Assembly (NCBI RefSeq): GCF_048128805.1
Contig: NC_135999.1
Location: 17,108,690 to 17,172,689, forward strand
Direction: 5' to 3'
DNA from: Centroberyx gerrardi
Taxonomy: Eukaryota > Chordata > Actinopteri > Beryciformes > Berycidae
Length of the DNA: 64,000 nt
The position numbers were made by a program, and so were the translations under genes. The notes under the pieces were generated by a model. That model saw only the letters and a program-made list of their open reading frames with translations, had not been told where the DNA came from and made no database searches. Below are positions 44,592 through 63,554 of this stretch, piece after piece (the stretch's first letter is position 1; every line of letters begins with the position of its first letter).

Positions 44592-46775
44592 CGTGTGCGT
44601 GCGTGCGTGCGTGCCCGTGCGTGCGTGCCCAGCCCATTTAACCCAGTTGAACCAGTATTTGACAGTATGATCTAAAGTTTCATATCATAATGTTCAGAAG
44701 TACTCTTGATGAATTTGACTTGTAGATGGAAATAAGTGTATATTTTAGCTTTCGTGGCCCATTATCTGTTAAAACTCAGATGTCTTTCACTTCAGCAAAC
44801 AAAATGCACCTTTTAATAATTTTATTTTACTCAAAGATATGTTCTCCTAGTAATTATGCATAGATACAATTAGTGGAACTACCTACAGCACATTTTCATC
44901 TCTCTTAATATGTTTTTATAAGAATTTATAAGCAGATTTATAGTTGGTGTTTACAGTTGGTGTTTATATTCAACTTCTGAGCAGCAGTGCAAACTTCCAG
45001 AGTGTACAGCAAAACAAAATTATTTCACACAACTTTCTCAATACTTAGGTCACCCACTTTCTATTTATGGCCTGTGGCTACAACAGTTATGATTGGGCAA
45101 ATTGGACCGATACGCCGAGCTGAAAACCAGAGAACCAAGACTAATCTGCTAGCTGCTGCTCCAGTCACAGTGAAACGGAGACGGTCTTGGTGGCTGCATA
45201 TAATGTCTGTCTGAGCTTTTACATCCAAGTGAGCTTGATTTTGTGGTGCTGCTATCAGTTTCAAAACAGAAAACCTACCCTGATCCCCAGAAAATCCTCC
45301 TGCATATTGCCACAGGCACATTTCCCATCTTTTGGAGCTGATTCTTTTTGGAGCTTGTCATCTGCAAACTTTTCTCTCTTCTTTATGTTTAATAGCAGAT
45401 ATTTATTTGGTGAGTCACACAGAGCAACACATTACACACGACTTATGCAATATAACAATACTAATTTTATAGGTCCCAGGCTTTGACCCAGACCAGCTGG
45501 TGCCACCCTCCTGTCCTGTGGCCACGCCTCCTCCTGGTACAGAGCAAACACACCCAGAAACTAGAAATCCACCAACAGCACACAAGACTTAGTCCTTACA
45601 AACATTTCACATATAAGCATGTTTCATGTTTGGCAGAAATTCTGTCCCAGAGTTTCATGTACTTTTAAAGATTATACATATACAGCATACTTGATAAACC
45701 GAGACCCTGTGTTTGTATGTTCATACAACTTTTTTGTTTTTTTGTTCTCTTTGTCTGTTGTGAAACTAGCAGATGTTTCGCTGCCAGCAGAGCCCAAGAC
45801 CAGAGCTGACTTCTTGAAATGTAATAAATAAATTTATCTTGAAGTAGTACACAGTCTCTCTCTCTGCTGATACTCTCCACAAATCCCTAGACAGAAAAAG
45901 AAGCAGAAACAAATAGTAGTGGTGACATAGTGTCATGTGAATTCTTGCGGCTTGCAATTAAATTTTTAGGATTTGTCTTAAGCAAACAGTGGAGAACCCA
46001 GGTAAACTCACTGTTCAGAAGCAAGTTTTAGAATTGGCTCGATTGAGAGTCCTGCTGTATTACTGTATGTATGCATTGTATTTCTGTAATGTATTTCTAT
46101 CTGTAATGTGTTGATGTAGGCCTATAAAAGTTCACCCAGACTGTCTGAACCAACTCATCCATTTGGCTTTAGCTGTATAAGTGAGGGAGAGATTCATCAG
46201 GCTTTATATCTTTCTGTCTGTCCATTTCTTTCTCTAATTTGCTCTCTCCTCTCCCAGACTCCTGCCGGCTCACGCTGGACTCCAACACAGCATACAGAGA
46301 GCTGCGTCTGTCGGAGGGGAACAGGAAGGTGGAGATGATGGATATAGTCCAGTTGTATCCGGAAAGCCCAGAGAGGTTCTCTCACCTGTATCAGGTGCTG
46401 TGTGAACAGGCTCTGACTGGACGCTGTTACTGGGAGGTGGAGTGGAGCGGCTCTATTGAAATAGCAGTCGCGTATAAAGGTCTCGGCAGAACGGCCTATT
46501 ACCACGAGTGTGCGTTTGGGTGCAACGACAAGTCCTGGAGTTTAGACTTGAATGAAAACGCTAAATGTTTCAGACACGGTGACGTCGAGACTGAAGTGCC
46601 GGACCCCCAGTCCTCCAGAGTGGGAGTGTTCCTGGACCACAAGGCGGGCACTCTGTCCTTCTACAGCATCTCTGACACGATGACGCTGCTCCACACAGTC
46701 CAGACCACCTTCACTGAGCCGCTCTATCCCGGGCTCTGGGTTGCAGACAGTGCTGAGCTGTGTGAACTGGAGTAG
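44456..46775 (+). CDS. PRY-SPRY (B30.2) domain protein without RING or B-box
   Basis: Exons 44456-44509, 45473-45536, 45770-45820 and 46258-46775 join in phase to 228 residues. The first 56 residues are low complexity (MEHQVGADYRPTDSSSSL, then a Pro-rich FDPDQLVPPSCPVATPPP). They are followed by ADVSLPAEPKTRADFLK, the linker that precedes PRY-SPRY domains in many fish TRIM and NLR-family proteins. The PRY part has LDSNTAYRELRLSEGNRKV. The SPRY part has LTGRCYWEVEWSG, DKSWSLDL and VGVFLDHKAGTLSFYS, the three classical SPRY motifs. No RING, B-box, coiled coil, NACHT or membrane segment is present, so this is a stand-alone B30.2 protein, probably a protein-binding module or an immune-related adaptor (inference). 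Missing upstream exons cannot be excluded. A hAT MITE starts 24 bp after the stop. Confidence 0.8.
44520..44630 (+). repeat. (GT)n / (GCGT)n microsatellite
   Basis: About 68 bp of GT followed by GCGT-type repeats, starting 10 bp after the donor of exon 1 of the PRY-SPRY gene. The alternating purine-pyrimidine composition can adopt Z-DNA. Confidence 0.95.
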
Positions 46776-49875: not shown

Positions 49876-52800
49876 TCACCATGGTGATAAATGTGGGGCT
49901 TGGGCCACGTGGCTCTGGAACAAGGTTGTCCGATCCAGCAGTGTGAGTGGGATATCTCTGATGACCAAAGGCAAGTCTTCATGTTGTAGTGGATAGATGA
50001 CCACACTTAGGGCGGGCCGCTCAGCTGAAAACCTAAGAGATCGAGAGAGAGAGAGTGAGAGAGAGAGCGAGCAAGAGAGAGAGCGAGAGAGAGAGAGAGA
50101 GAGAGAGAGAGGGCACAAGATGAAGGTGGAGTTCAAGTCTGTCAACATCAAATGTTAGATGCACGCCCCCTGCCCCAAACACGCACAACTACTGACCTGT
50201 CCAGTAATGTTTTCTGCAGTGTGCGACAAGCCACCAAGGTCCCACCCATGAACATGTGGCACATGACGACACTGCGGCAACGCTCCATGAAGGTTTCCGT
50301 GGCAAACGGGTCAAAGGTTCCACTGCGTGAGATGAGGCAGATGCGTTGCAGACGGGAACAACATGACAGAGCCTCAAAGAATGATGCGTTGGCACTCAGG
50401 TAGGGCTGCTCTAACCTACACACACACACACACAAACGAACACACACAATGTTCAACATAATTTGAAAAGAAGCAAATTTGAACAAAGCTGTAAACCAGT
50501 TACACAAAATTTTGTCAGAGTAGCTGGTGTATAGGCGAAAGATTGACATAGTTTTACAAGTGAACTGAGGCACCACCTTAAGTAAAACATTATTCCTTTT
50601 AGTTTCAATGTGATACACAGGTACGTGTTTGGAGTAATCTGACTACAAGGAGAAAACAGAATGCAAGGTTCATCTATTTGGTCATTCCCCATGAATATCA
50701 GAAATAATTGCCATCTTCTAATGCCAAATGATTGGGAGTCATGGAGACAATAGTTCTTGGTAAAATCAACAGCGCTACTTGGCTTTGGGCTAAAAGAGAG
50801 ATTAAGAATGAGAGATTCCCAAGACACTAAGAGTGATAGTGGTTTCTCAGTTCTGCATGTTATTAGAGAGCCATGCCATACATTCAGCTGGTTCTTAGTC
50901 TACTCTCAGGCCAAACACCCAGCTGAAAAAAAGATCCTTAATTTTGAAAGAGAGGGAAAATCAACTGACCAAAGGGACATAAAATCCTACATAAATTAAA
51001 ATTGTACAATCTATTGGTTTCTATTTTATTCATATAGTGAATGAAGGGTATACAGAAGTTTATTCTAACCTGAGCTCCTGCAGCTGTGTGCAGTGTTTAA
51101 GTGTGTCCAGCAAGGCGGAGGTGTAGTTCATGGTTTTTAAGGACCCCAAGTTGGCAAGGGACAACACCTGTAGGTCTTGACAGCGCTTGGCCAGCTGTAG
51201 CAGCCCAGTCCCCTTAAGGACCCCCGGAAGCCCAGCCAGAGTCAGACGACGTAATCGTGACAACGCCTCTAGTGCTGCCAAGTGTGTATCGCCGACTCCT
51301 CGAGCCCAGGCACACATACCACGAGGCTCCACGCACGCACGTGCGCAAGGCTCCAGCCGAGGCAGTGCAGAGATAAAACCAGGGCCGATGAGCTCCAAGA
51401 TCTCCAAAAAGGGGCAGCCAGCTAACAGCTGTGCCAGCCCCAAGGTGCTGTCCCTAGGCGAAGGAGACTCTGAATCTGGCTTGTAATTCTGGAGTCCCAC
51501 ACGTGGAGCCTTCTTCAACCCCAGTAACAGGGAAGAGGGCGAAGTAGTGTGTGTAGAGATGTGACGTGTGTTTAAGCCATCTGACAGGGCGCAGGCAGGC
51601 AGAGTGAGCGAGCGCAGGCATCCGAGTTTGGCCAGACTGGCACACAGGTGTGTTTCCCCACCTAGCCCCGGTGTGTTTTCATGGTGATAGTGTGTGTGCA
51701 TTAGGTTCAGGTGTTTGAGGTTGGAACAGCCAATTGCCAGCCGTCTCATTGTCCCGGCAACCAGCTTATCTTCCCCCCCGCGTATCCCGGTGCACTCTGG
51801 GTAAGGGGCATGGCTTATCCCGCTGAGGTTGAGGCTGAGCAACTGTGTAGCATCTTTGACCCCTCCCTCCAGCAGTGAATGGAAGACCTGTGCCCATAAC
51901 GCTGGGCAGCGGCTGAAGCTGAGGTGCTTGGGGCTGTTGCCCTGTAGGGCTCGCTCTAGTGACAGGGAATCCAACCAAGAACGAGGAAGTTGCAAGGCCT
52001 CCAGATCGCCATGGTTACGCAAGCTCTGGGCCAATGAGGTGGCAGCGGGCCAGTGGGCAGGGTTTGGACCAGGAATCGACACTAGAAAGACTCGAAGACG
52101 CTCTGGAACATGAACGCTGAACACGGCTAGGTAGAGAAGGAGCAAGGTCTGGTTTACCTAAGAACATCAACACACAGATACACTAATTAAAGGTACGCAG
52201 ATTACACATATTATTGCAGAACATATTGCACATATACAGTATGTGAACAGATTACACTCATATGCACAAACTCACCTCTCCTGGGGCCAGTCGAGCACTG
52301 AACTCCTCTAGCTGTTGATAATGTGGCACACTGCTCTGGCCCACCATCAACTGGCAGCAAACACCAACACCCTCTCTGGTCACATCTGAGATGTCGAACT
52401 GTAGAGCCAACCTATAAGCAGAAACATGGACATACACACCCACAATTTCAATAATGAAGCAGTAAAACAGTAAAGCATTCACGTAGTGATGCTAAACTCT
52501 ACCAATTGACCAAGGGCATAAAGATGCCTGCTTCCTGGTCTGACATCATTACCTGTCTAACAGTGCAACATGTCAAAGTGTTTATCAAGTGAATCTGATA
52601 GGTCCTTACCTGCGTAGTTGTGCACAGCAGGGTACCACACCGTAACTGGGCGTCAGAAGTGTTTGTTTCAGCTCTGACAGGCGGCTCAGTGAATCAACTG
52701 CCTCTGAATTTAGCTGAGCGGAGTTGAAGCCTGGCGCCACATCAAAAGCAAGTGATGTGAGGAGGGAGAGGGAGGAGAGGAGGCGGGAGAGACGAAGTGA

Positions 52801-56288: not shown

Positions 56289-57325
56289 TCAGACGGATTG
56301 CGGGCTGAAGCAGCCGTACAGAGGGAGATAAGTGCCAGCACAGATTGGATTTCCTGCTGAATTAAACATCGTCGCTCTTCTTCTTCCTCCTAAAATGCCA
56401 AAAAATCGCCTCAGTCCTTTGCGCTTCTGAAACGGAAAGAAAGAAGCATTTGTTTAGTAAGAAATGTCAATGAAGCTGCAATTTGTGTAACTCTTAGCTA
56501 AGAAAAATCACATTCTTAAAAAAAATGAATAAAAAGAAAAATTACATTGTTTGCCGCTAAAGTTGCTTAATCCCACGCATTCTGCCTCAAAAAACACAGT
56601 TTGTGCTTTTTCATTAGTAAAATAGCCAAGAAACTTATTGTGAAGCCCATCCACAGTAGAGCCTCATTTAAATATCGGCCTTTCTTGAGACCGACTAGTC
56701 GACTAGTCGGGACAACAAACCCACTAGTCCAGCTTGTAAAAACAGACTCGTGCTTGTCTCTACTCACCTTGCTCACTGCTGGGTCGGTCTGGGTTTCTTG
56801 GTCCAGGATGTTTCTCTCCTGAGCAGCTGCTGTTTGTTTCTGCTCCTCCTGGATTTGCTGCAGCAGAGCCTTCATCTCCTGGCAGGACTTTTGTTCCAGG
56901 AGGATTTTGTCCTCCAGGTCCTTGGTCCTGCTGGCTTGTGTCTCCTTCAGCCCGTCCAGACTGAGGAGAAGGGAATTGAAGGTTTTCCCTTTCTCTTTCA
57001 GCTCGATCATCCCTCTGATCTCTGCTTCTCTGGCCTTCTTCTCCGTCTCCTATCTTTCACTGCTGCGGTCTTTCTGCAGCGCTGCAGAGAAGGCTTGCAG
57101 ACGGCTGATGGTGGCGGTCATCTCTGCCTTCTCTTTGTCAGCAGACAGGAGTTTGAGTCGAAGGAGGTTGAGCTCAGCATCCTTCTCTTTCTGCTGCACC
57201 AAGCCAGTTTCTTCAGTCAGCTTCATCCGGCTCTGCAGCTCCTCTCTCTCCTTCTTCCACTCTTCGCGCTCCCTCGCTGGCCACTTTATTAGTTTCCCTA
57301 CCATTGAATAGGTGTGGTGGGTCAC
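56289..57325 (-). pseudogene. Coiled-coil protein gene remnant with an in-frame stop
   Basis: Two exons: about 57325-56768 and 56426-56289, joined in phase by a GT-AG intron. The translation is a charged coiled coil (WKKEREELQSRMK, DAELNLLRLKLLSADKEKAE, then KSCQEMKALLQQIQEEQKQ). It ends in a basic segment KRKGLRRFFGILGGRRR and a short tail to TGA at 56289-56291. One TAG at 57050-57052 interrupts the frame; reading continues cleanly on both sides in the same frame. No upstream exon with a convincing start was found, so the gene looks 5'-incomplete. It may be a recent pseudogene, a read-through or selenocysteine-free recoding case, or a base-calling error. The protein family was not recognised. 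Confidence 0.55.
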
Positions 57326-58589
57326 TCTGCCTTAAAGAGCTGCTAACACTAAAAGAATTTCATCAGTCTGGGTTTCAGTGGAGAGTTTTAGTGTCCCATG
57401 ATGGTCTAAATGCTGTTTCACCCTGACAAGACGACAATTCTAGAGGAAACACTGAATAGTTGTGATTTTTGCTTGTTTTGAAAGGAAATTTCATGGACAG
57501 ACATGCTCTAGTACCCATATTAAACTTCTCCACTTTTTATTCAGAATTTTAACTGTGAAATCCGGGAGAAATATTCATAATTGATTTAATTTTCCTTGAT
57601 CTTGCAAGGTCACAAGTCAAAACTCATAAATGCGACAAAACAAGGAATTTTAAGAGAATATTATTTGCAACGTAAAAGTCAGTTTTGTCAGAATAATCTG
57701 AAAGTGTCTGTGTGTGTATCAATACATTTTAACAAATAAAATATTTACTTTTGTATTTGTTGCGTGCATCCCTGACATGGCTACCTATAGCTGCCTTGTA
57801 GTCAGGCCAAGTTTCTCTTAAATATATATATATATATTAAAACATAACAGGTAGGCTTTTCGCCTGAAGGGCCGCACCATTGACTGATGGTGTAAATGAA
57901 GTATATCGTGCAACTTGGATGAAAAAAATAAATAAATAAGACTCCATATGCCTTGAGAGTTTTCAGTGATCTAGGTCTGGAATCCAACTCCTGTAGGAGC
58001 TGTATATCAATAACCAATGTTTAAAGAATGATCTTGCCCAAATGAAATATCTACACATTATTCATGTAGCCTGCACTTATGAAGCTTACACCTATAGGCA
58101 GCATACTGTGTGTAATATGGAACTTAACCCTTAGAGATAAATGTCACATACTGTAGTACAAGCAAATCTTTTCAATTCAACAAACTTTATCCATTCCTAA
58201 AGGAGAAGGATCCTACAGGTATTAAACAGCCTGCAGTAAAACACATTTTAAGTGCTTGTGGTTGGCAAGTTGGCCAAGACATAAAAGCTGACCATTAACA
58301 CAGTAATGTCCAGGTCATACTGTGATGCTCTTGACGAAAGAAGAAAATGTCCACACTACTCATAAGAAAATAAACAAAGCAGAAAAAATATTGTGTCAAT
58401 ATACTCGAGGAAATTTGTGTACACATCCCTCTGATGTGCACATGCTAGTCCACTACACATGCATCCGCTCAGGTAAGTCAGAGTTCATTGCCCTTAGTGA
58501 AGTGTTGCCCTTATTCAAAGACACTTGTATTTATCAAGGATTGAATTCAAATCACTACTTTTCTACACTGATGATTCAAATGTCCAGTA
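57326..58589. other. Spacer without recognised genes
   Basis: AT-rich sequence with a short (TA)n tract near 57823-57837. The open frame at 58322-58675 (+) overlaps the last integrase exon on the other strand and resembles nothing known. Confidence 0.45.
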
Positions 58590-60752
58590 TCAGACCGAGA
58601 CTACGATGTAAGGTCCTGTCCCGTTGCTCTCCAGACACTCTCCTTTGCCACCTTCCTTCCTCTTCTTGGCCTTAAGCGCGTCGTCTCCCGCAGCGGTTTC
58701 AAAAGATTTGACATTCCTCCGCTTGTACGACACAAAGTGCTTCTTTTGCCTGACTTTGGCCGCCTGGATGTTCTCAGAAATCTGTGCATGAGATTAATCA
58801 AGATTCAGTAGAACTTCAGCTGCACAAAGGACCTCAAACTCTTCCTATTACAAAAAGATTCTCACCCTGGCATGGATTTCTGCAGTCCGCTCCTCCAGGT
58901 TTTCCACTGGATCACCTACAACAAAGTCCCCCGTCATCTGGGTGGCGTTGACGTCTCCAGGAGTTAGCGGGTGTCTCCCAAACATGGCATAGTACGGTGC
59001 GTACTTTATTGCTCTCTAACAAAATCAACAGCATTACATACTATACTTTTCTCATTTTTTATGCACTGCAATGCCATTTTTTAGTTGTTTGTGCCACTCT
59101 TTACCTGCTTTGAAGTGTTAATGGATGATACAGCAGCTCTCAAATGAAGATCCCAGTCGTTCTGCTCTCCTCCGCAGCGCTTAGCCAAAGCCTTTTTAAT
59201 GGATTGTTTTGTCCTCTCATTCTGACCATGTGACTGAGGGTGGTAAGTGGAGGTGATGCAGTGTTTAATACCAAACACCTCAAATATCTCATGGTTGACC
59301 TGTAGAAGCATCAATATGTACACATATTAGCTGCTAAAGTACTCTATTTATCAACTGTCCATTGTTTGTATGGCAGATTTGCTGTGTTATAGTAAGTGTG
59401 AATATTTGGCCCACTGAAATTTGACATGTTAAGTGTTTACCTCGTCCACAAACTTTAGTTCTTGGTTTGTTATTATTTGGTCAACGAGTCCGAAATCTAG
59501 GAGCACATTGACAATCTTTCTCGCCACTTCGGCAGCAGTTTTGTTGCGAATGGGCTTTGCAATAACCCATTTAGTGAAAAGATCTGTCATGGTGAGGATA
59601 TACCTGCAAGATACATTACATATGTTGCATTTGAGTTCATGTATTATTGTAGCCCTTTTGAACTTTCAGGAATAACATAGCACACTTGACTCACATGAAG
59701 TTCTAGAAATTAAGCACTTAATCCTATACACTTTTTCTCCTCTATGCCATAACAATAATGGGTTTTAGCAGAACTCTTTCTCGTGCTGCCCGGCACTAAA
59801 ACATAACGTGGAGATTGGTCTGCGAACATAGGGTTACCCATGCATGAGGGAATTTGTTGAGATGCTTTTTGTACTATTTAACATACTTTTCTGTTGCTCA
59901 TATTGCTAGTAAATAGAGTATTGTTAGTCCAAACGGGCTGGACACCGCTAGGTGCATCACAAACAGCTTAGAACAACATACCTCCTGCCCTTTGAAGTGG
60001 TGTGAAGTGGGCCAATAAAATCCATCCCCAAAACACTCCATGCGCAGGTTCCCTTGGCGGGATGCTGGCCCGGAGCCACCATGTTAACTGTGTCATTGCG
60101 CTGACACTGAGGACACGCATCAACCTGCAAAATAAACAGAAAGACAAACTTCCATCAAAACGTCCTGGTATTCTTTTGGACTGATGCAACAGTTTTGTCA
60201 GGATGTCTCACCCATTTGTTAGCATCCGCTCTGATGCTGGCCCAGTGGTATGATGTCATAATTCTCTCCACTGTCCTGCGCCGGCTCGGGTGGCCTCCAG
60301 TGGAAACACTATCGTGGCACTCTCTCAGCACTTGATCTCTTTCCTCGATGTTCATAACTACCAAACGCAACTTGTCCCGGAAATTGTAGTACAAACGGTT
60401 ATCTATAAAAAGAAATAATATCTTATCATCTGCATTTCATTTGTTACATTTAATACAAACTGGATATGCTGACTAAAATAGAGAATGTTGCAACATCACA
60501 ACTACTGAGTCAATAGAACAAATCCCAAATAAATGCATTCGGAAATAACTTTGTAGCACAGTAGAATGTAGTGTTCCTGTTATTGGGATCTCTGACTGCA
60601 TTGTATATCTAACCTTTTACTAAGTAACACTTGGAAGATCTCCTGACAGCCGCCTTCCTGCGTTCACGGTTTTTACAGCAGTCTGTCAGAGGATGGTAGC
60701 GACCATTCTCCAGATAGTGCTGGACCTCTGTGAACAACTGGAAGCTCCCCAT
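58590..60752 (-). CDS. GIN/Ginger-type integrase-like protein, intron-bearing
   Basis: Seven exons in phase: 60614-60752, 60212-60402, 59982-60124, 59441-59603, 59105-59299, 58866-59015 and 58590-58781; 390 residues. Order of parts: an N-terminal segment; the H2C2 integrase zinc finger (His76, His84, Cys114, Cys117, the latter pair in DACPQCQ); then the DDE core with Asp165 in ILTMTDLFTKW and Glu240 in YHPQSHGQNER; then KYAPYYAMFGRHP and a GPY motif near the end. The second catalytic Asp is replaced by Asn204 (IITNQELKF), exactly 35 residues before the Glu. No gag, protease, reverse transcriptase or LTR flanks it. Gypsy-type integrases split by spliceosomal introns are known from the domesticated GIN1/GIN2 genes and from Ginger DNA transposons. 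Which of these it is cannot be decided without comparison. GIN1 in human is longer. Confidence 0.8.
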
Positions 60753-60789
60753 TTCAGCAATCTCCAAAACACCGACAGGAATTAAACAG

Positions 60790-61507
60790 AGAAAACTGAA
60801 TAGATAACAGCTATAATTTCACCGCCTAGAGAATATTTGTGGCCATGTACAAGTAGAATAGAATTTACCAATCTACAATCAATCTTAATATATTATTAAT
60901 CTAAATATATTTGCCTCAAAAAGGCCATTAAAAATGGCCGAAGTACCACACATAGAAAATAGTACAACATCTCTGTCATTGCAAATCAAGTACATCCCTT
61001 CATGGCAGCTGTGTATCTGCCTAGGAAAGTATTTTTTGTATACATTGCAGCAAATACGCAATCATAAAAAGTTAGCTCTATCATGCCAAGTAATCTTGTT
61101 CAGTCCATCAGCACACCATGCACATGAATAGCCTAATACACCAAGTAACTTCGACTCTTACCGATTAATTTTTTTTTTTTTACAGCAGTGGGGATTTAGT
61201 AATTGAGTGTATAAGACTAGCCGAGATCCAGCCCCACAAAAACATCTGAATAGAATATAACAGGCAGAGGAAGGCGCTTTTTCAAGGATCAAGGCGGTGA
61301 TGCTAAACTCTAGATATTTATGTCTCATTGCGAGGAGGGAAATTGTGAACGCTCTTTTTGTTAAGTAGCCTATGCAAACTATGCACAGATAATTTAATCA
61401 TAAAAAGATTTTGCGTTAGGTTGGAAAAATGGTAATTGATCATGACAACTGCAATCTAACAATTTGCAAAACTGTTGTCTTTCAACAGGCTGTGGACATG
61501 ATCTTAC
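60790..61507 (-). other. Putative 5' intron of the integrase-like gene
   Basis: No coding exon was recognised. If the donor at 61506-61507 (minus) is used, this stretch is the intron between a noncoding first exon and the first coding exon. Confidence 0.3.
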
Positions 61508-61600
61508 CTCAATGCGGGAAGGGAAAGTGGTTTTTTTGAGGGGTTTTTTTTTTGGCGCGGACTAGAGGAGTTTTTCTTTGTTTTCTTTTTTTAATGCGGC
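61508..61600 (-). promoter_or_regulatory. Candidate noncoding first exon and promoter of the integrase-like gene
   Basis: On the minus strand a GAG|GTAAGAT donor ends at 61508. Upstream of it an E2F-like site (TTTGGCGCGG on plus, 61550-61560) lies in a poly-T tract. A transposon end begins at 61614. Confidence 0.3.
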
Positions 61601-61613
61601 GAATGGCCAAGTA

Positions 61614-62664
61614 CACCCAGCTGCAGCCTGCGGAACGGGGCGGGGCTACAGGTCGAACCTGTAATGCATTGGTGATTTCACTGGTTTAGCGAACCTGTAA
61701 TCCCGCCCATTGATGATTTCATTGGTTTAGAGGTCGAAACAGGGCGGGACTACAGATCGCCTGTAATCTAAATTGAGAATCCACTATGGTTGGAAACGAG
61801 GGCAGAAGTGGTTTGTTTACTTAGTGGTAGTTACCGTAAATCCTCTAATAGTTTGCCTGTAGTCAATTAAAAGCCGGGTCTCCGATAATGGCCGGGGCCG
61901 TGGTCGACACGAACAAATAAAGGCCGGCCTCAAATACAGGCCGGGGAAAAAACAAAGGAAACAAGACTAGGTCAAAACCTCTCTCCGCCGCTGTCCTCTC
62001 CATTCTATTCTTAGCTTCAGTTAGCTTCAGTTAGCTTCAGCTTACATGCAAACAACGGTGAATACCGGTAAACTCCTGGTGCCTGTTTGTAACTGTAGTT
62101 TGTAGTAACGTACAAGTGCCACAAGATGGCTCGGCCGGCGGAAGTCTCTGGAGCATGCCGTCGTCGATTACCGTAATTATCGGTAATGCATTGCAGTAAC
62201 AAAAAAAACGGCTACCTAACGAACCCCAACAGAAGCAGATCAGAAAACAAGGAGGCTTCGTACTAAAATATGAGCAAATATACTTATCAAACAGAGGGAA
62301 TTAGAAATAAAGGCCTGTCTCTAATATAAGCCTGCTTCCAATAAAGGCCTGGTACCCTCTGCAGTTGAGGTAAATAAAGGCCTGGGCCAATATTAGAGGA
62401 TTTACGGTATTCAATTTAGTTTCCTACCCTGTTGCATGTAAGAAAAGTCAATAACACCAGCAATTAAAATAAAATGTTTTTATGGTGAAATATATTTATT
62501 ACCTTTTCGATTTTTTTCAGATGACAAAGACAGTACAATTGATTGATGATTTTATTGGTTTAGCGGTCGACTTCATTGTTTTAGCGGACGATTTCATTGA
62601 TTAGCGGTCGACCTGCCCGCCCCGATCTGTAGCCCCGCCCCGTTCTGCAGGCTGCAGCTGGGTG
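61614..62664. mobile_element. DNA transposon with about 40-bp terminal inverted repeats, interrupted by a nested MITE
   Basis: The left end CACCCAGCTGCAGCCTGCGG, continuing GAACGGGGCGGGGCTACAG, is repeated inverted at the right end (62621-62664) with one or two changes. Subterminal units TTTCATTGGTTTAGCGGTCG-like occur on both sides (61665-61735 and 62545-62615). No matching target duplication was seen. There is no transposase ORF inside; the middle is occupied by the MITE at 61832-62409. Confidence 0.7.
61832..62409. mobile_element. MITE with 19-bp perfect inverted repeats, nested
   Basis: Ends are TACCGTAAATCCTCTAATA and its exact inverse at 62391-62409. The interior carries AATAAAGGCC(G/T)GG subrepeats at both ends in the same or inverted sense, and an AGCTTCAGTT tandem at 62012-62040. 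The TA at the ends may be the target duplication, as in Tc/mariner-type elements (inference). Confidence 0.75.
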
Positions 62665-63206
62665 CTTCTCGCTGAGCTACTAACCTTCTACAGGTGTCAA
62701 TCAAAGTTTTACAACAATCAGAACGCAACACGTCACTCTGACTCTGATAAGGAGGAATCGGAGGACCTGAACAGCTTCAATACTGACCAAGGAGGTTTTA
62801 TATTAACCATAGACCGTAAAACTGACACCTCTTCTTCTGGTCTTTGGTTTTGGAATCGTGCTTCTGCTGTAAGATATCATGTCAAACGCATCATGGAGAA
62901 CATTAGCCCTGATTCTATAGGACTCTTTGGGAATCTTTAGTTGTTGTATTGGTTGTTGTCTCTTCTCCTAAACGGTCCCGTGCTAGGAGTCCTCCCTACA
63001 AACGTCGGAGAGGTCAAACAAACTACATCGTATTTCACTTTCCCAAACAGGTGTACATATTGTCCTTCACTTGTCTGCTTGTCACTTGTCAATTTTCAGA
63101 CTTTGTCAAAGACAAGTACACCCAAGGTCTCCATCATAATGAAGTCAAAGATGGCCGACAGACGCCTCGACTTCCTCGCAGGTAGCTGTAGCTACCAACC
63201 TCCTTG
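62665..63206 (+). other. Possible decayed coding stretch
   Basis: An open frame at 62662-62940 (RCQSKFYNNQNATRHSDSDK..., ending SIGLFGNL) follows a poly-pyrimidine AG at 62691-62692. A second frame, shifted by one, starts within 62949-63050 (SPKRSRARSPPYKRRRGQT) and meets a GT at 63050. The composition looks protein-like, but no family was recognised and the two parts are not in one frame. Confidence 0.3.
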
Positions 63207-63214
63207 CTATAGGC

Positions 63215-63554
63215 CAGTGGTTCTCAACGTGGGGTCCGGGGACCACCAGGGGTCCGTGAGGGGGTTCCAGGGGGTCCCCAGCAAATTGACGAATTATTCA
63301 ACTTCACCATTATTTAATTTACAAGACGTTAACACAATTAGAGAATGTAAAGGAATGACTATTTTGATCATAGTTTCACTGTTATCTCTCTACCTACAAT
63401 ACAGACAGTCATGAAATTCTGGACAAAATCATACCGAACAATAAAAATATTCTCAAATTTGGGTCCGAGAGACAAAATCTCATCAAATGGGGGTCCGTGG
63501 CTCTAATGTGGACTAAGTTAGGGTCCTTGATATCAAAAAGGTTGAGAATCACTG
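63215..63554. mobile_element. Nonautonomous hAT (Charlie-like) MITE with perfect 8-bp target duplication
   Basis: 340 bp with ends CAGTGGTTCTCAAC and, inverted, CAGTGATTCTCAAC. It is flanked on both sides by CTATAGGC (63207-63214 and 63555-63562). The CAGTGGTTCTCAAC start is the well-known terminal motif of MER5/Charlie-type hAT elements. The GGGTCCG and GGGGTCC words inside are typical too. It has no coding capacity. Confidence 0.92.

Follow-up and report, generated by a model that had tools for sequence, protein, structure and literature searches.

A gene coding for an integrase lies on the minus strand of the window (the whole 64-kb stretch of DNA analyzed here), at 58590-60752. Its predicted protein has lost the second of the three catalytic acids, and its duplicate on another contig, C24 (the C24 twin), has retained the complete D, D, E triad and, in its gene model, continues into a domain of DNA repair factors. 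The explanation that we consider probable is that both genes form a host gene pair derived from a Ginger1-type integrase, the window copy being most likely a non-catalytic binding or multimerizing protein. Broken triads have been described before in domesticated Ginger1 integrases; what was not found among the best-matching open-licence papers is the variant seen here, a duplicated pair at new loci with a predicted fusion of the twin to the C-terminal domain of PWWP3A/B. A natural pair, in which one member has D-D-E intact together with a repair-factor domain and the other has lost the second Asp, allows asking whether hosts keep catalysis or binding.

Anatomy and active site of the window gene

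The window gene has seven coding exons and six GT...AG introns of 211, 87, 378, 141, 89, and 84 nt (introns 1-6), and splicing in silico gave an open frame of 390 codons, in agreement with the seven exons, GT-AG introns, and matching phases described in an earlier note made from these letters. All coordinates in this paragraph are read on the minus strand. Exon 1 (60614..60752) starts with the ATG at 60752, is followed by the donor GTTAGA, and aligns without indels to exon 1 of the C24 twin. Exon 2 (60212..60402) codes for the first part of an H2C2 zinc finger (H76 and H84), which is completed in exon 3 (59982..60124) by C114 and C117, the latter exon also containing the first catalytic Asp, D145. 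N204 (codon AAC; the twin has Asp, GAC) is in exon 4 (59441..59603) and E240 in exon 5 (59105..59299), while exon 6 (58866..59015) was defined by the spliced frame and the alignment to the twin. Exon 7, together with the stop codon (58590..58781), carries a GPY motif and shows little conservation with the twin in its second half (61.3% identity for the exon). The region upstream of the gene (60753..61111) is also common to both copies, with 75.7% identity over 341 aligned bases, and is probably a promoter or 5' untranslated region. On the other side, three short blocks (58161-58197, 58069-58109, and 57973-58010) are collinear with sequence past the predicted stop codon of the twin.

The Pfam analysis of the spliced protein revealed an Integrase_H2C2 domain (PF17921, residues 66-121, E=1.6e-17) and an rve domain (PF00665, residues 141-233, E=2.6e-8), with the GPY motif located after the core by eye (residues 383-385). 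When compared to solved structures with phmmer, 11 distinct sequences matched the protein at E up to 0.01, the best one being PFV integrase (residues 43-309, E=1.7e-21), and Ty3 was among the matches (E=1.4e-19). NCBIfam returned only sub-cutoff matches to IS481, IS30, and IS3, as expected for the integrase fold. Y19, P21, Y43, and Y51-Y52 fit, by eye only, the YPYY motif that precedes the zinc finger in Ginger1, and a domain search found no OTU or Ulp1 domain either in this protein or in the predicted protein of the twin. The putative Ginger1 kinship of the gene rests on these domains and motifs and not on a tree. The frame and the H2C2 and rve domains bear out the previous description of an intact, intron-bearing Ginger/GIN-type integrase gene, and a dead retroelement with a chance frame is ruled out by the intact frame, the Pfam domains, and the absence of coding indels.

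All the residues listed in the earlier note (H76, H84, C114, C117, D165, N204, E240, and GPY) are present, but the assignment of D165 as the first catalytic Asp has to be corrected. The residues that we take to be catalytic in PFV integrase pair with D145 (in MDFIGP), N204, and E240 of the window protein, with 35 residues between N204 and E240. D145 precedes D165 by 20 residues, and a conserved Asp about 20 residues past the first triad position was considered an alternative conserved residue in the GIN2 study, in a passage that leaves its role open (PMC3424704). The triad is incomplete in the window protein, as the second acid is replaced by Asn; in addition, the Gly found two residues past the second Asp (SDQG in PFV, TDRG in the twin) is Glu206. 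The C24 twin reads ITDRGPTF where the window protein reads ITNQELKF, and retains D148, D207, and E243. Asp was taken as the ancestral residue at the second catalytic position because it is common to the twin and PFV integrase. The loss of a catalytic residue proposed previously is supported, as N204 aligns with the second Asp that the twin keeps.

The C24 twin and its predicted fusion to a PWWP3A/B domain

The window gene was used to search the genome at the DNA level (779 Mb in 278 contigs, probably of a teleost, judging by gene content; the counts of matches are lower bounds). There were at least 11 matches: one was the window, two were adjacent parts of a single C24 locus (80% and 75% identity), and the other eight were short. 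In this single search only one extended nucleotide-level relative was found, on contig C24, and not the many near-identical copies that the earlier note had named as a sign against a host gene. Relatives were also sought in viral contigs, where peptide patterns matched 85 stretches, none of which was confirmed.

The gene model of the twin comprises 12 exons (C24:13830269-13834721). Its six introns corresponding to those of the window gene have the same positions and phases, each of exons 2-6 equals its window counterpart in length, and exon 1 has nine extra bases at its start. Exons 1-6 of the two copies are 76.3-86.5% identical (802 of 981 aligned bases, 81.8%) and the introns 71.1-88.9% (748 of 940, 79.6%). 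The homology extends 359 bases upstream of the ATG, perhaps further, and outside this shared unit of ∼3-5.5 kb only scattered short matches were found between the 64-kb window and 30 kb of C24. The shared introns and upstream region indicate a DNA-level duplication of an intron-containing gene, and the introns rule out a retroposed copy. Relative to the twin, the first ATG and a possible 5' splice acceptor (TTTAG) are changed in the window copy. A 5' intron was considered, with its donor and acceptor placed only tentatively. The C24 locus is flanked on one side by a weak tetraspanin match (E=0.0038, below the cutoff) and on the other by a Ras-family gene (E=3.8e-22). An insertion with 32-bp inverted ends (C24:13831104-13831660) is present in intron 3 of the twin and absent from the window copy, so it either postdates the duplication or was lost in the window copy.

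After exon 7, the C24 locus has five more exons joined by in-frame GT-AG splicing (a possible 18-base microexon was not counted), giving a predicted protein of 563 residues, with exons 8-12 modelled from genomic DNA. PF20886, the domain at the C terminus of PWWP domain-containing DNA repair factors 3A/B, was matched by residues 418-540 (E=3.6e-25; E=4.1e-27 for a piece assembled by eye). Pfam found no PWWP domain in this protein, and a search of solved structures with the PWWP3A/B-type piece gave no match at E up to 1. The description of the gene as integrase-only thus holds for the window copy, but not for the gene model of its twin. The twin also lacks GPY, having GPP at the paired position in the protein alignment (the DNA alignment is poor there). 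No PWWP3-like exons were found near the window gene by tblastn at E up to 1 in the window and 10 kb beyond; the database also included six 10-kb loci of C24 or C3 and five short loci, and the sole matches were the exons of the twin. Because the blocks downstream of the window gene are collinear with sequence past the stop codon of the twin, either the window copy has lost the PWWP3-type exons or the twin has gained them.

PWWP3A, which we take to be the same protein as MUM1 and EXPAND1, has a single feature in common with the pair, the C-terminal PF20886 domain, which is present only in the C24 twin; the twin differs from it in having an integrase as its N-terminal part and no Pfam PWWP domain. 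EXPAND1 reportedly relaxes chromatin and causes 53BP1 foci at breaks to expand, in the portion of text available to us (PMC9778356), and in the available text of a survey of PWWP genes the words 'integrase' and 'transpos' are absent (PMC3457860). The predicted fusion would tie a Ginger-type integrase to the EXPAND1/MUM1 family, a member of which reportedly acts at 53BP1 foci.

Selection on the pair and competing explanations

In one MAFFT alignment of the two copies, no gap event was found in 981 coding aligned bases, while there were 28 in 1273 noncoding ones; the expected number of coding indels is ∼21.6 (Poisson P ∼4e-10). The pairwise dN/dS ratio was 0.506 (Nei-Gojobori, 327 codons, exons 1-6; bootstrap 0.36-0.74, with none of 1000 replicates reaching 1), a value obtained with one relative only, in which the branches are not separated, and which is also compatible with constraint on one branch and relaxation of the other. 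By regions, the zinc finger had a dN/dS of 0.28 and the core (residues 138-245) one of 1.19, compared to 0.38 for the residues outside the core. The contrast between the core and the rest (Fisher P=0.029) is descriptive, as the bounds of the core were set after a first look at the regions, in which the core was taken as residues 122-245 and dN/dS was 1.11. The dN/dS check suggested in the earlier note gave a divided answer, ∼0.5 overall, which is below 1 but not strongly purifying and speaks for a host gene, and ∼1.2 in the catalytic core, which speaks against it. Taking the window branch as half of the window/C24 divergence, the probability that the copy shows neither a stop nor an indel and has all 24 splice bases intact is ∼3e-8 if this branch had been fully neutral, ∼3e-5 if it had been neutral in its last three fifths, and ∼3% if only in its last fifth. 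The low probability of an intact gene under long neutrality indicates selection on the window copy through most of its past, and its frame has been preserved by selection, as for a domesticated host gene. A very recent decay or relaxation of the window copy may be compatible with the overall ratio of ∼0.5 and the core ratio of ∼1.2.

According to the probable explanation given above, a Ginger1-type DNA-transposon integrase would have become a host gene, which was later duplicated at the DNA level with its introns and upstream region to give the window copy and the C24 twin. The twin would have kept D, D, and E, its gene model being joined by splicing to the PWWP3A/B C-terminal domain, and the window copy would have kept the HHCC finger, the integrase-core signature, and GPY while its second Asp changed to Asn and the nearby Gly to Glu. 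The window gene would be expressed and selected for DNA or protein binding, its product most likely binding nucleic acid or partners through the HHCC finger and the integrase fold, without strand transfer. It may multimerize through GPY, as known for the family (GPY is given a multimerization role in part of PMC2836005), possibly forming mixed multimers with the twin, which it could thereby affect. Several observations go against this explanation: exons 1-6 are barely more conserved than the introns (81.8% vs 79.6%), dN/dS is 1.19 in the core vs 0.38 elsewhere, the overall ratio would also suit relaxation of one branch, the first ATG and the possible 5' splice acceptor are changed in the window copy, no PWWP3-type exons were found nearby, and neutrality in the last fifth of the window branch would still leave an intact gene in ∼3% of cases. 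A bolder and quite doubtful version would make the pair a third vertebrate domestication of Ginger1, in which the twin is a DDE-intact integrase-PWWP3A/B chimera, possibly an active recombinase, and the window copy a dead partner or inhibitor that still multimerizes. If true, the C24 chimera would be a predicted host recombinase, possibly active, addressed to repair or chromatin.

The main rival, which we consider unlikely, is that the window gene is a duplicate of the C24 gene that began to die recently; constrained for most of its existence, it would now be losing catalytic activity, the C-terminal exons, and the original start. The ratio of 1.19 in the core, the Gly-to-Glu change beside N204 and N204 itself, the absence of detected PWWP3-type exons nearby, the changed first ATG and possible 5' splice acceptor, and an exon identity close to that of the introns would all be in line with such decay; however, exons 1-6 contain no stop, frameshift, or lost splice site, the ratios of 0.28 in the zinc finger and 0.38 outside the core indicate constraint, and GPY is present in the window copy, while the twin has GPP at the paired position.

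It could also be thought that the two loci are old copies of a still or formerly mobile multi-intron Ginger1 transposon and not host genes, which seems improbable. Like the window gene, Ginger1 transposons (of Hydra and others) have the H2C2 finger, the core, and GPY, together with an N-terminal YPYY motif to which the window protein may have a counterpart (by eye), and some of their transposase genes have 1-4 introns, according to the portion of PMC2836005 available to us; moreover, the shared unit is short, with only scattered matches outside it, and copies were counted at the DNA level. The same portion of that paper gives 0-4 introns for the listed families, fewer than the six found here, an OTU or Ulp1 domain in all families but one, and TIRs of ∼40-270 bp with TGTNR ends and 4-bp CCGG or CCGT target duplications (PMC2836005). 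In contrast, only two copies of the window gene were detected, with no OTU or Ulp1 domain found, and no convincing TIRs surround either unit, so that a Ginger TIR element was rejected and the flanking inverted repeats anticipated as a refuting sign did not appear. Of the 16 inverted pairs in window 57000-63500, one encloses the coding region (16 nt, 81%, 58045-58060/61304-61319), every pair obtained in a scan with 16-mers had 2-3 mismatches, and no long inverted pair was found at the ends of the C24 unit. The short pairs around the window gene were taken as chance, a judgment made without a statistical test, and no 4-bp CCGG/CCGT target duplication could be assigned because the ends of an element are not definable. 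The single extended relative, the frame constraint in the pair, and the host-type domain in the gene model of the twin likewise stand against a transposon.

Among the known domesticated relatives, gin-1 and gin-2 are named as Ginger1-like in part of PMC5753468, and GIN1 and GIN2 share three conserved intron positions with Ginger1-5_HM in the text of PMC2836005 available to us. That the window gene is GIN2 itself, or a translocated or duplicated GIN2, is in our opinion highly improbable. GIN2, a Ginger1-derived fish gene, does resemble it in having an H2C2 (HHCC) finger, an integrase core, GPY/F, multiple coding exons (eight), and no second catalytic Asp (PMC3424704, in part). However, fish GIN2 lies between OGFOD2 and ABCB9, while the window gene is beside FBXL18; it has Asp in place of Glu, while the window gene has E240 and its twin a full D, D, E plus the PWWP3A/B domain; and it reportedly retains an Asp at a distance of four residues from the second triad position, while the nearest one in the window protein, D199, is five away (PMC3424704, in part). 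GIN1, reported there from amniotes with its catalytic residues kept (PMC3424704), is likewise Ginger1-derived and has the same 29 residues from the second His to the first Cys, although its finger is HX6H and that of the window gene HX7H (GIN1 spacing from part of PMC5384227). Among Ginger1-derived genes that have lost DDE, the closest parallel is Imagin of malacostracan crustaceans, a domesticated integrase that kept H2C2 (PMC12863088). It differs in its host and in having three exons, the first wholly 5'UTR, and a dN/dS of 0.05-0.13 among decapod orthologues, and the portion of the paper available describes it as single copy and mentions no host-domain fusion (PMC12863088). GIN-type genes are described as domesticated transposases without known function in part of PMC3424704. 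For a cellular role of an HHCC finger, a precedent by analogy could be zebrafish Zbtb11, in which the integrase-like finger is linked to TP53 repression and its point mutants do not rescue, a precedent qualified by the rescue still obtained with constructs that lack the N terminus (PMC5384227, in part).

Surroundings of the window gene

FBXL18 (PF19729, E=1.1e-148) is located downstream of the window gene on the same strand, at window 51063-52145, and an open reading frame with PRY-SPRY (B30.2) adjoins it on the plus strand (46239-46775). An actin-like coding sequence was recognized by eye in the 10 kb past the high end of the window. Just downstream of the gene, at 56567-57325 of the minus strand, there are coding fragments of coiled-coil type, separated by a stop (by eye), possibly a gene fragment; the upstream one starts near a repeat end that resembles that of the intron 3 insertion of the twin.

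Upstream of the gene, an insertion at 61614-62664 has 42-bp terminal inverted repeats (61614-61655/62623-62664, 95% complementary) with a second inverted pair nested within it (61832-61850/62391-62409), and looks like a MITE inside a MITE. Its terminal pair was discarded as the ends of the window gene, as it lies wholly upstream and belongs to a separate insertion. Window 62678-62718 is 90% identical over 41 bases to C24:13828964-13829003, also upstream of its gene and in the opposite orientation relative to it, and this common segment is probably a dispersed repeat. Finally, intron 1 contains a small dispersed repeat at window 60516-60575 (query 1927-1986), with eight other genome matches of 32-52 bases.
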